Positions 3,016 through 38,339 of a DNA stretch of 64,000 nucleotides are shown here, in pieces. A model generated the notes under the pieces. That model was not told where the DNA came from and made no database searches. It saw only the letters and a program-made list of their open reading frames with translations. The position numbers were made by a program, and so were the translations under genes. The stretch comes from Sphaerotilus hippei (lineage in GTDB: Bacteria > Pseudomonadota > Gammaproteobacteria > Burkholderiales > Burkholderiaceae_C). Numbering within the stretch: the first letter of the stretch is position 1; each line of letters opens with the position of its first letter. The stretch spans positions 248,001 through 312,000 of the forward strand of contig NZ_QJJS01000001.1 of NCBI RefSeq assembly GCF_003201595.1, read 5' to 3'.

Positions 3016-4073
3016 GCGCCGTTTCCTTTCCCGCCGCCGCGCCCTGGCGCGAGCGGCTCCTGCAGCGTGAATCGCTGCTGCTGCTGATCATCGTGGCCAT
3101 CGTGCTGATGGTCGGTGCCCGCGCGCCGGTGTTCCTGACCTGGCGCACGGCCCTCGACGTGGCCAACGACTCGGCCATCCTCGCCATCCTGGTGATGGGC
3201 CAGATGCTGGTGCTGCTGACCCGCGGGGTCGACCTGTCGGTGGCCTCGAACCTGGCGCTGACCGGCATGCTGTGCGCGCTGGCCGGTCGCCACTGGCCGG
3301 CGCTGGGCGCGCCCGCGCTGATCGCCCTGGCGATGGCCATCGGCGCGGCGCTGGGCGCGCTCAACGGCTGGCTGGTGACCCGTTTCCTGCTGCCCTCCAT
3401 CGTCGTGACGCTGGGCACGATGTCGGTCTACCGCGGCGCGATCTTCGTGGTCAGCGGCGGGGCCTGGGTCTCGGACCACCAGATCCACCCGGCCATCAAG
3501 GCCTTGCCGCGCGAGACCTGGCTGGGCCTGCCGGCGCTGCCCTGGCTGGCGGCGGCGGTGGTGCTGCTGGTGTGGTGGCTGCTGACCTGGCGGCGCGAGG
3601 GGCGTGACCTCTACGCCTTCGGCGGCCATCCGAGCGCGGCCGTGGTCGCGGGCATCCCCGGGCCGCGCCGGCTGATGCTGGCCTACACCCTGTCGGGCGT
3701 CTGCGCCGGGCTGGCCGGCCTGCTGTGGGTGGGCCGCTACGCGATCGCCTTCACCGAGCTGGCCGCGGGTTTCGAGCTGACCGTGATCGCCGCCTGCGTG
3801 ATCGGCGGGGTCAGCATCGGCGGGGGCGTGGGCAGTGTCGCGGGCGCGGTGCTGGGCGTGCTGTTCATCGGCGTGATCAACGGCGCGCTGCCGGTCATCC
3901 AGGTCTCGCCCTTCTGGCAGCAGGCCATCGCCGGGGCGGTGATCCTGATCTCGGTGGTGCTGAACTCGCGGGCCGGGCGCCAGGCCGGACGCCAGATCCT
4001 CGAGGTCGGCGGGCCCGCCGCGCCGACCCCTTCCATCCATTCCCGTCCGGCAGGGCAAGGAGCCGCCGCATGA
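3012..4073 (+). CDS. rhaP: Rhamnose ABC transporter permease 1
   Basis: A 353-residue inner-membrane permease of the BPD_transp_2 family (CUT2 sugar importers). Successive hydrophobic segments begin at about residues 22-40 and continue to near residue 325, and the conserved cytoplasmic loop signature GRDLYAFGGHPSAA is present, where CUT2 permeases contact the ATPase. It would form a heterodimeric channel with the next gene product. The ATG overlaps the rhaT stop and its own stop overlaps the rhaQ ATG, so the three genes are translationally coupled. The hydrophilic tail of about 30 residues after the last membrane segment looks unstructured. Confidence 0.87.
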   Translation: MSAVSFPAAAPWRERLLQRESLLLLIIVAIVLMVGARAPVFLTWRTALDVANDSAILAILVMGQMLVLLTRGVDLSVASNLALTGMLCALAGRHWPALGAPALIALAMAIGAALGALNGWLVTRFLLPSIVVTLGTMSVYRGAIFVVSGGAWVSDHQIHPAIKALPRETWLGLPALPWLAAAVVLLVWWLLTWRREGRDLYAFGGHPSAAVVAGIPGPRRLMLAYTLSGVCAGLAGLLWVGRYAIAFTELAAGFELTVIAACVIGGVSIGGGVGSVAGAVLGVLFIGVINGALPVIQVSPFWQQAIAGAVILISVVLNSRAGRQAGRQILEVGGPAAPTPSIHSRPAGQGAAA

Positions 4074-5038
4074 AAGTCCATGACACCTGGGAGCGGGTCC
4101 TGCTGGTCCTGCTGCTGCTGGTCTACCTGGGCTTCGGCCTGGGCGTGGAGGGCTTCCTGAGCCCCTACGCGCTGGCCGACAGCACCTACAACTTCTCCGA
4201 GAAGGCGCTGATCGCGCTGGCCATGGCGCTGCTGGTGATCGCCGGCGAGATCGACCTGTCGATCGCCGCGACGATGGCGCTGTGCTCGCTGGCGATGGGC
4301 GTGGCGATGAAGCTGGGCGCGAGCCTGCCGGTGATGGTGGCGGTCGCGCTGCTGACCGGGGCGCTGTGCGGTGCGCTCAACGGCTGGCTGGTGACCCGCT
4401 GGGCGCTGCCGTCCATCGTCGTCACCATCGGCACGCTGTCGCTGTACCGCGGCATCGCGCTGGTGGCATTGGGCGACCAGGCGATCACCGGTTACCCCGA
4501 GGCGCTCAGCGTGCTGGGCAACGGCACGCTGGGCGACCTGATCGGCCTGCCGGGGCTGATCGTGCCCATCGAGTTCGTGATCATGCTGGTGGCCGCGGCG
4601 GTCATCGGCCTGGGCCTGCACGCCACGGTGCACGGCCGGCGCCTCTACGCGATCGGCGCCAACCCGGTGGCCTCGCGCTTCTCGGGCATCGAGGTCGACC
4701 GCTACCGCCTCGGGCTGTTCGTGCTGGCCGGCGTGATGGCCGCGCTGGCGGCCATCCTGCTGACCGGGCGCATCGGCAGCACCCGGCCCAACCTCGCGCT
4801 GGGCTGGGAGCTGGAGGCGGTGACCATCGTCATCCTCGGCGGCGTGGCCATCGAGGGCGGGCGCGGCAGCATCACCGGCACGGTGCTGGCCGCCGTGCTG
4901 CTGGGCAGCTTCACCTTCGGGCTGGGCATGCTCAACGTCTCCGGCATCGTGATGTCGATGATCGTCGGCCTGCTGCTGGTGCTGGCGATGGTGCTGCCCC
5001 GCCTGCGCCTGAGGCTGCGCCGGCCCCGCCTGGCCTGA
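4070..5038 (+). CDS. rhaQ: Rhamnose ABC transporter permease 2
   Basis: A 322-residue CUT2 permease, paralogous to the preceding gene (shared motifs such as LNGWLVTR and SIVVT.GT). It has about eight to ten hydrophobic segments and the loop signature [14 protein letters not shown]. It should pair with RhaP to form the rhamnose channel. It starts inside the previous gene's stop (ATGA) and ends 17 bases before the mutarotase. An alternative reading as one half of another pentose importer cannot be excluded by sequence, but the operon contents favour rhamnose. Confidence 0.87.
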
Positions 5039-37242: not shown

Positions 37243-37293
37243 CGCGGCGGCGGCGGCCCGGTGGCGGGAGCGCGATTTGCTTGCTCCGGCCTC

Positions 37294-38010
37294 ATGCACC
37301 CCTCCACCCGCCCGCCTGCGCATCCACACCTGGCCCCGCCCGACCCGCACGGCCCCGACAGCGCGGGGTGGATGGACGGATTTCGCGAGCAGCCCGTGGT
37401 GCGCGGGCAGGTGGTGTCGCGCCCCGGCGGCCGGCGTGACGAGATCCTGATCGTGCGCAGCGGCCGGCTGCGCGTCCACCTGTGCGACGAGCAGCGCGAG
37501 CTGACGCTGCTGTTCCTGGAGCCCGGCGACGTGTTCTCCACCCACACCCCGGCCTGGGTCACGGCGGCCGAGCCCGGGGTGCTGGCCGCCATGCCCACGA
37601 AGCAGTTCGCCACCCGCCTGGCGCAGGCCTCGCCGGCCGTCATGTCGATCATGCGGGTGCTGGGCCGCCTGCTGGCCCGCACCATCGAGCTGGTCGAGAA
37701 CCTGGTGTTCCGCGAGGTGCACGAGCGGCTGGCCCGCCTGCTGGCGCTGTGGGTGCGCGAGCAGGGGCGCCACGTCGAGGCCTCCGGCCACTGGGTGACC
37801 TCGCTGCCGTTCACGCTGACCGACCTGGCGCTGATGATCGGCGCCTCGCGCCAGACCGTGTCCGCCGCCTTTGCCGACCTGGAGCGCCGCGGCCTGCTGC
37901 GGCGCCAGGGCCGCCGCACGCTGCACGTGCTGGACCTGCCTCAGCTCGAGGCGCAGGGCCAGCTCGCGATGTCGTCCAGCCGACAGACGCGGCCCGCGCC
38001 CCCCGCCTAA
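37294..38010 (+). CDS. CooA-like Crp/Fnr-family regulator, probable CO sensor
   Basis: A 238-residue Crp/Fnr protein. The effector domain resembles the heme-based CO sensor CooA of Rhodospirillum rubrum: SGRLRVHL and ELTLLFLEPGDVFSTHTPAW match CooA's DGRLRVYL and the GDMFCMHSGC region. His84 falls on the CooA heme ligand His77; the CooA Cys75 is Ser82 here, as in some other CooA homologues. The C-terminal winged helix carries IGASRQTVSAAF, matching CooA IGSSRQT. The first 26 residues are a Pro/His-rich extension that could supply the other heme ligand. The gene directly precedes cowN, a CooA target in R. rubrum. Start at ATG 37294. Confidence 0.75.
   Translation: MHPSTRPPAHPHLAPPDPHGPDSAGWMDGFREQPVVRGQVVSRPGGRRDEILIVRSGRLRVHLCDEQRELTLLFLEPGDVFSTHTPAWVTAAEPGVLAAMPTKQFATRLAQASPAVMSIMRVLGRLLARTIELVENLVFREVHERLARLLALWVREQGRHVEASGHWVTSLPFTLTDLALMIGASRQTVSAAFADLERRGLLRRQGRRTLHVLDLPQLEAQGQLAMSSSRQTRPAPPA
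37970..37985. promoter_or_regulatory. Predicted CooA-type operator upstream of cowN
   Basis: TGTCG-TCCAGC-CGACA is a perfect 5-6-5 palindrome of the CRP/CooA operator class (CooA sites contain TGTC-N8-GACA). Its centre is 68 bases before the cowN ATG. A possible -10 element TAAGCT at 38008-38013 would put the start of transcription near 38019 and the operator at -41.5, the class II activator position. The site lies inside the last codons of the CooA-like gene. Confidence 0.65.
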
Positions 38011-38045
38011 GCTCGGCCCCAGACCCAACCCTCTGGAGTGCCCCC

Positions 38046-38339
38046 ATGAGCAGCCTGACCTCGAACGCCGCGGTGGACCGCTACGTCAGCTTCAAAGGCA
38101 TCGACTACGACGGCAACGTGCGCCGCGTGCTCGATCACCTGGAGCGCTACCGCCGCCGCGATCCGCAGCACCGGCTGCTCGACTACCTCGCCCGCCAGCG
38201 CAGCCTGACCTCCGGCGCCCGGCGCGACGACCTGCTGCTGCTGCACAGCCTGGTCAACCCGATCCGCGACCTGTTCGAGGCCGGGTCCGACCAGCCGGCC
38301 CTGGCCGATCTGGACCGGCTCGAGCAGGAGTGCTTCTGA
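38046..38339 (+). CDS. cowN: CowN-like protein, nitrogenase protection from CO
   Basis: A 97-residue soluble protein matching the CowN family (N2-fixation sustaining protein) by its N-terminal DRYVSFKGIDYDGNVRRVLD, an Arg-rich middle, and the C-terminal pattern LVNPIRDLFEAG followed by LDRLEQECF. CowN keeps nitrogenase active when CO is present. A ribosome site (CTCTGGAG at 38031-38038) precedes the ATG. It follows the CooA-like CO sensor by 35 bases, with a CooA-type palindrome and a -10-like sequence between them. The sequence is a confident family match from memory of CowN proteins; nitrogenase genes are not in this window. Confidence 0.75.
   Translation: MSSLTSNAAVDRYVSFKGIDYDGNVRRVLDHLERYRRRDPQHRLLDYLARQRSLTSGARRDDLLLLHSLVNPIRDLFEAGSDQPALADLDRLEQECF

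Follow-up and report, generated by a model that had tools for sequence, protein, structure and literature searches.

CooA is a heme-containing dimer of the Crp/Fnr family, known in Rhodospirillum rubrum and C. hydrogenoformans from CO-oxidation genes; the R. rubrum protein recognizes TGTCG-N6-(C/T)GACA, and its distal heme ligand is the N-terminal Pro2. According to the available portions of PMC6955866, activation with a change of ligand from Cys75 to His77 is unique to R. rubrum CooA, and the C. hydrogenoformans protein has Ala2 and His82 as its ligands and undergoes no such change. The gene also occurs beside cowN: the portions of PMC8047169 considered here describe an algH-cooA-cowN cluster in Gluconacetobacter diazotrophicus, where a CooA-type site precedes cowN by 60 bp, report that with CowN nitrogenase turnover continues under CO, and cite CooA control of cowN in Rhodobacter capsulatus. 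In Rubrivivax gelatinosus CBS, according to the account of cooA-cowN in PMC4257681, cooA adjoins cowN, and regulation of cowN by CooA is put forward there as a possibility; IL144 and R. benzoatilyticus carry the two genes as well, with no anaerobic CO dehydrogenase genes. The cooA-cowN pairing is already in print for Gluconacetobacter and Rubrivivax, as is CooA control of cowN for Rhodobacter capsulatus.

We analysed a stretch of 64,000 nt of Sphaerotilus hippei NZ_QJJS01000001.1 (the window, to which all coordinates refer unless stated; the genes and all elements apart from the palindromic operator are given on the + strand). An open reading frame at 37294-38010, ending in TAA, encodes a 238-residue protein that the initial annotation had taken for a CooA-like Crp/Fnr regulator with SRQT in its recognition helix, and both parts of this assignment held. 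A phmmer search against solved structures placed C. hydrogenoformans CooA first (2fmy, E 1.1e-29) and R. rubrum CooA third (1ft9, E 1.8e-27), with the first cAMP-type Crp protein far behind (E 3.3e-12); the recognition helix aligns with that of CooA as GASRQTVS, with SRQT at 37846-37857. No NCBIfam model, for CooA or any other family, exceeded its cut-off on this protein. A maximum-likelihood tree was built from 24 cowN-linked CooAs, the window protein being one of them, together with CooA fragments from R. rubrum and C. hydrogenoformans and 10 further Crp/Fnr proteins; all the CooAs separated from those 10 with support of 95/97. The closest partners of the window protein were two CooAs from Azoarcus (93/88), its own branch being long (1.24); the nearest CooAs by tree path come from Zoogloeaceae, and the best identity to the window protein within the set examined is 39-40%. 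The 24 cowN-linked CooAs were not recovered as a single clade, yet such a clade was not rejected (p-AU 0.117). An AlphaFold2 model of the regulator (mean pLDDT 85.1) had CooA chains as its top four Foldseek matches in the PDB, at low whole-chain TM-scores of 0.40-0.43 and rmsd of 11.7-14.7. Search, tree and predicted fold together confirm 37294-38010 as a gene for a predicted CO sensor of the CooA family; its ATG start has no clear Shine-Dalgarno sequence.

After 35 bases comes the second gene, at 38046-38339, encoding 97 residues and preceded by a Shine-Dalgarno-like GGAG (38035-38038) 7 bases before its start. The proposal that a CowN-family gene follows the regulator at exactly this distance was borne out by two curated profiles, Pfam PF20543 (96.4 bits, cut-off 27) and NCBIfam NF033689 (90.1 bits, cut-off 48), and the product is thereby confirmed by profile match as CowN, a family reported to protect nitrogenase from CO. 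Next to the pair lie genes for a PF01212 protein and for one with a BON domain. The host genome (4.43 Mb in 46 contigs, rated 100% complete) proved, when checked for nitrogenase, to carry the adjoining genes nifK, nifD and nifH on contig C14 (5104-9298 of locus L015), each over its curated cut-off, and the models for V- and Fe-nitrogenase stayed below cut-off for these genes. The nif genes and the cooA-cowN pair lie on separate contigs, C14 and C1 respectively. A CO dehydrogenase operon had been noted as missing near the pair; across the whole host genome, the model for the anaerobic enzyme (CooS, TIGR01702) has no match.

To place the pair among its relatives, we scanned for CowN with one genome per species and obtained 54 loci, 21 of which had CooA within the fetched flanks; with the window and G109 these make 23 linked loci, and with G755 and a Rhodobacter plasmid, both found by CooA searches, 25. 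At cowN loci, CooA was sought with a three-row profile consisting of the window protein plus two PDB fragments; the other 36 cowN loci gave no match reaching E 1e-3, but several of them are truncated by contig ends, beyond which a more distant CooA may lie. Locus L012 was excluded from operator counts owing to its reading on the other strand, and the 35 unlinked loci used for comparison include many from Azospirillum, which are not independent, and have mechanically set cowN starts. In 24 of the linked loci no more than 150 bp separate the end of the CooA reading frame from the cowN start; in the 25th, L017 from Azoarcus, cooA is 2.6 kb upstream and other genes intervene. CowN itself is sparse: with the host's own genome counted in both samples, 1 of 100 relatives has it, as do 5 of 398 genomes from the phylum.

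The palindrome TGTCGTCCAGCCGACA at 37970-37985 is a perfect TGTCG-N6-CGACA and matches the predicted operator sequence TGTCG-N6-(C/T)GACA that is conserved upstream of cowN in relatives. Taken by itself it is unremarkable, since shuffled versions of the 64-kb window, in which it is the only match, gave a mean of 0.17 and at least one match in 15 of 100; the whole 4.43 Mb genome has 20 instances of TGTC-N8-GACA, four of them TGTCG-N6-CGACA, the window site included. Its weight comes from its place and from its conservation in relatives. Of 23 cooA-linked loci, 21 have a perfect TGTC-N8-GACA in the 400 bp preceding cowN, a feature of none of the 35 unlinked ones, and the core GTC-N8-GAC lies within 200 bp upstream in 25/25 linked loci against 1/35 unlinked. 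The two linked loci with imperfect operators are both from Azoarcus, the source of the nearest tree relatives of the window CooA, and keep the core with changed outer bases (as in L022). Of the 19 TGTC-N8-GACA sites outside the window we inspected one, the perfect palindrome at C14:61306 on the nif contig, as a possible second CooA target, and set it aside, as it forms part of a longer inverted repeat flanked by two minus-strand genes and looks unlike a cowN-type promoter.

The sequence and position of the palindrome were correctly described by the initial annotation, which had however placed it between the genes; it lies inside the 3' coding end of cooA, in the codons ATG TCG TCC AGC CGA CAG. 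This placement follows a pattern. Among 23 loci with perfect sites (the 21 plus L072 and L081), positions 12-14 of the operator are the TGA stop of cooA in 17, always in the same register; the operator follows the cooA stop in four (L029, L051, L026 and L070) and lies inside the cooA gene in L044. In the window the codon in that register is CGA (37981-37983), which gives the half-site CGACA and a symmetric operator, and cooA reads through nine codons, the CGA included, to the TAA that opens the −10 element. The simplest reading of this comparison is that an ancestral cooA stop changed to CGA in the window species, the direction of change being inferred.

Downstream of the operator, TAAGCT at 38008-38013, whose TAA is the cooA stop, is the predicted −10-like element of the cowN promoter. 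The element and its class II geometry had been proposed with the operator at −41.5; element and geometry stand, and the distance is corrected, as the operator centre is 30.5 bp away from the first base of TAAGCT, for an operator position of about −42.5. The cooA-linked cowN loci examined share a conserved arrangement: TAxxxT occurs 20-22 bp past the operator in 19 of the 23 perfect-site loci, the distance being 21 bp in 15 of them, 22 bp in three, the window included, and 20 bp in one. The commonest spacing among relatives corresponds to −41.5. Over the 5-34 bp scanned, TAxxxT appears at the remaining offsets not at all, or once at 10 bp. By eye, the other four loci have GACAAT or GAGAAT at 21-22 bp (three Zoogloeaceae) and TAGATA at 22 bp (L056). 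Spacing of this kind matches class II activation, with the site centred at about −41.5 to −42.5. A scan with the sigma70 consensus found no promoter here, as is to be anticipated where a promoter lacks a good −35 and depends on an activator, and this result lends no support.

We then considered the heme-binding side of the protein. The initial alignment of the FSTHT segment was upheld: in Ser82-Thr83-His84 (37537-37545), His84 falls on His77, the proximal heme ligand in R. rubrum CooA, and Ser82 falls on Cys75. The histidine is invariant in all 25 cooA-linked proteins, and the Cys75 position is Ser in nine, Val in 16 and Cys in none, set against a thin contrast of two CooAs tied to CO oxidation, those of R. 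rubrum and C. hydrogenoformans. The Val75 proteins form one clade (100/100), and the Ser75 proteins are intermixed with the two Cys75 references. With Ser82 in place of Cys75, the Fe(III) cysteine ligand and an R. rubrum-type redox switch are most likely absent; judging from these alignments, the redox ligand switch of R. rubrum is unlikely in the window protein and in cowN-linked CooAs generally. Lack of the cysteine is compatible with CO sensing because C. hydrogenoformans CooA works without a ligand change, and Cys75 is a trait of the R. rubrum protein rather than one that defines the family.

The N terminus of the window CooA, MHPSTRPP, is longer and of different make-up. Of 24 cooA-linked proteins, 16 have His-Pro among their first 12 residues, compared with 1.4% of internal windows of the same proteins; the count was not blind, as start codons were partly picked by eye among candidates already seen (L020, cut at its locus edge, was left out of this count and of the tree). 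Five of the eight proteins without N-terminal His-Pro start later, 64 residues before the heme histidine. His2-Pro3 (37297-37302) is a candidate for the distal ligand region, with His-Pro as the candidate ligand.

We read the pair as a CO-switched protection module for the Mo nitrogenase, in which CooA with CO would activate cowN and CowN would protect the enzyme, and put the probability of this reading at roughly 0.87. It builds on the gene identities, the operator, the promoter spacing, nifHDK and the lack of a CooS match, all established above from sequence. By analogy with the characterized families, the regulator would carry heme and bind CO on the face opposite His84; the heme ligands would be His84 and an N-terminal amine or histidine, the N-terminal one being displaced by CO. 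The CO-bound dimer would then bind the 16-bp operator at 37970-37985 and, from about 42 bp upstream of the transcription start, recruit sigma70 RNA polymerase to TAAGCT in the class II manner. The cowN mRNA would start near 38020 and be translated from the GGAG-led start at 38046, and CowN, acting as its family does, would let nitrogenase turnover continue with CO present. Activation of cowN by CO-bound CooA is, among these steps, well supported by the operator and promoter comparison. Against the module reading weigh the modest identity and long branch of the window CooA, the imperfect operators at the loci of its two nearest tree relatives, the 12 congeners that have no cowN, and the cooA start without a clear Shine-Dalgarno sequence.

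Every perfect TGTCG-N6-CGACA also satisfies TGT-N10-ACA, the activator sequence of NifA, so that the palindrome could instead belong to NifA, with cowN induced through sigma54 by nitrogen limitation and CooA acting secondarily or elsewhere; overlapping CooA and NifA sites upstream of cowN are indeed proposed for G. diazotrophicus in the portions of PMC8047169 considered here. We judge this improbable at the present locus. Between the operator and cowN, no −24/−12 element of at least 8/11 was found in any of 25 loci, which leaves a NifA/sigma54 origin of the palindrome unsupported; the −10 at 20-22 bp in 19/23 loci fits sigma70 and class II activation, and the operator core goes with the presence of cooA rather than with cowN as such (25/25 against 1/35). 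NifA sites normally lie further upstream, which also counts against it. Action of NifA on cooA instead of cowN would fit both this account and activation of cowN by CooA. In a scan of 24 loci, a weak sigma54 −24/−12-like element precedes the window cooA at 37266-37281, 8/11 at −28 from the cooA start; it is a lead, equalled in 26% of runs on simulated sequence. Counting the window, four loci have elements of this type at almost equal distances from the chosen cooA start: those of L023 and L038, which are close relatives of each other, score 10/11 at −27, and that of L081 scores 8/11 at −27; almost no leader would remain.

The missing Cys75 and the longer N terminus of different make-up would suit a relative of CooA whose signal is not CO but redox, NO or heme itself, and which regulates cowN, or else its own gene, to some other end. 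We consider this the more remote of the two alternatives, as the proximal histidine is invariant in 25/25 proteins and the adjacent target is a gene for protection from CO. Within the preferred reading, that of a CO-switched module, the same features admit a bolder and more doubtful idea: cowN-linked CooAs might be a distinct functional type of CO sensor without the Cys75 redox switch, many with an N-terminal His-Pro segment as displaceable heme ligand, and with an operator fixed at the cooA stop region, where in S. hippei the stop was lost and the operator made symmetric. If so, these proteins would report CO whatever their redox history, and the C-terminal tail of CooA would be dictated by its own binding site.

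Within a sample of the genus, cowN is present in 1 of 13 genomes and nifD over cut-off in 4 of 13; the 12 other members have no cowN and three of them have nifD over cut-off, so cowN is not needed for fixation in the genus. One such congener (G009, with nifD and no CowN match) is about 93% identical in nucleotides from 38774 to at least 47244; to the left of 38774 the flanks differ, with no match across cooA-cowN, and the 5' flank of the pair matches scattered places in three congeners. We considered horizontal gain, as the pair is unshared in the genus sample, and did not adopt it: the base composition of the region is ordinary and ARAGORN found no tRNA in the window, so that composition and tRNA scan give no sign of mobility. 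The distribution of cowN in the genus may reflect gain in S. hippei or loss in the others.

Several other loci offered observations of their own. On the Azospirillum lipoferum 4B plasmid AZO_p4 (L080, 2765-4528), a gene divergent from 4Fe-4S and aldehyde ferredoxin oxidoreductase genes encodes a 587-residue protein that joins a GAF domain at the N terminus to a CooA-like C-terminal part, the latter 36% identical to the window CooA over 192 columns with His at the His77 and Ile at the Cys75 position; from this architecture it is possibly a two-input sensor of CO or redox. In L011 (G260), a reading frame within 3409-4248 upstream of cowN looks PAS-like by eye and is perhaps RcoM. L012 and L018 have no CooA, and nifK-like reading frames, also recognized by eye, lie one to two kb upstream of cowN, which appears there to belong to a nif cluster.

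A limited literature search on overlap of operator and stop codon and on Cys75 in homologs returned nothing on cowN promoters. The stop-codon register, the near-fixed −10 and the absence of Cys75 were not met in the portions of PMC8047169, PMC4257681 and PMC6955866 considered, nor was an operator, promoter or Cys75 comparison in the account of cooA-cowN in PMC4257681; we make no claim of priority. What the window adds is an organism whose circuit from CO to CowN most likely runs without anaerobic CO oxidation, and CooA therefore need not be tied to CO dehydrogenase. The 25 linked loci, in turn, yield a rule of operator and promoter for spotting CO-protected diazotrophs, and for the importance of Cys75 and the redox switch in CO sensing they offer a comparison that nature has already made.

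Set beside the G. diazotrophicus system, as far as the portions of PMC8047169 considered describe it, the S. hippei locus shares cooA and cowN in one cluster, a CooA-type site upstream of cowN and a nitrogen-fixing host, but has no algH beside the pair; it differs from both G. diazotrophicus and R. capsulatus in that the operator lies wholly inside cooA, with the usual stop turned into CGA, and in that cooA-cowN and nif are on separate contigs. With Rubrivivax gelatinosus CBS, on the account of cooA-cowN in PMC4257681, it has the adjoining genes in common, whereas CO dehydrogenase genes are present in that strain and the S. hippei genome has no TIGR01702 match. With the CooAs of R. rubrum (1ft9) and C. 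hydrogenoformans (2fmy), finally, the window protein shares its predicted fold, proximal histidine and helix-turn-helix, and its predicted operator has the sequence known for the former; both of those proteins have Cys75, in contrast to the window CooA, which has serine in that position and cowN as its adjacent target.
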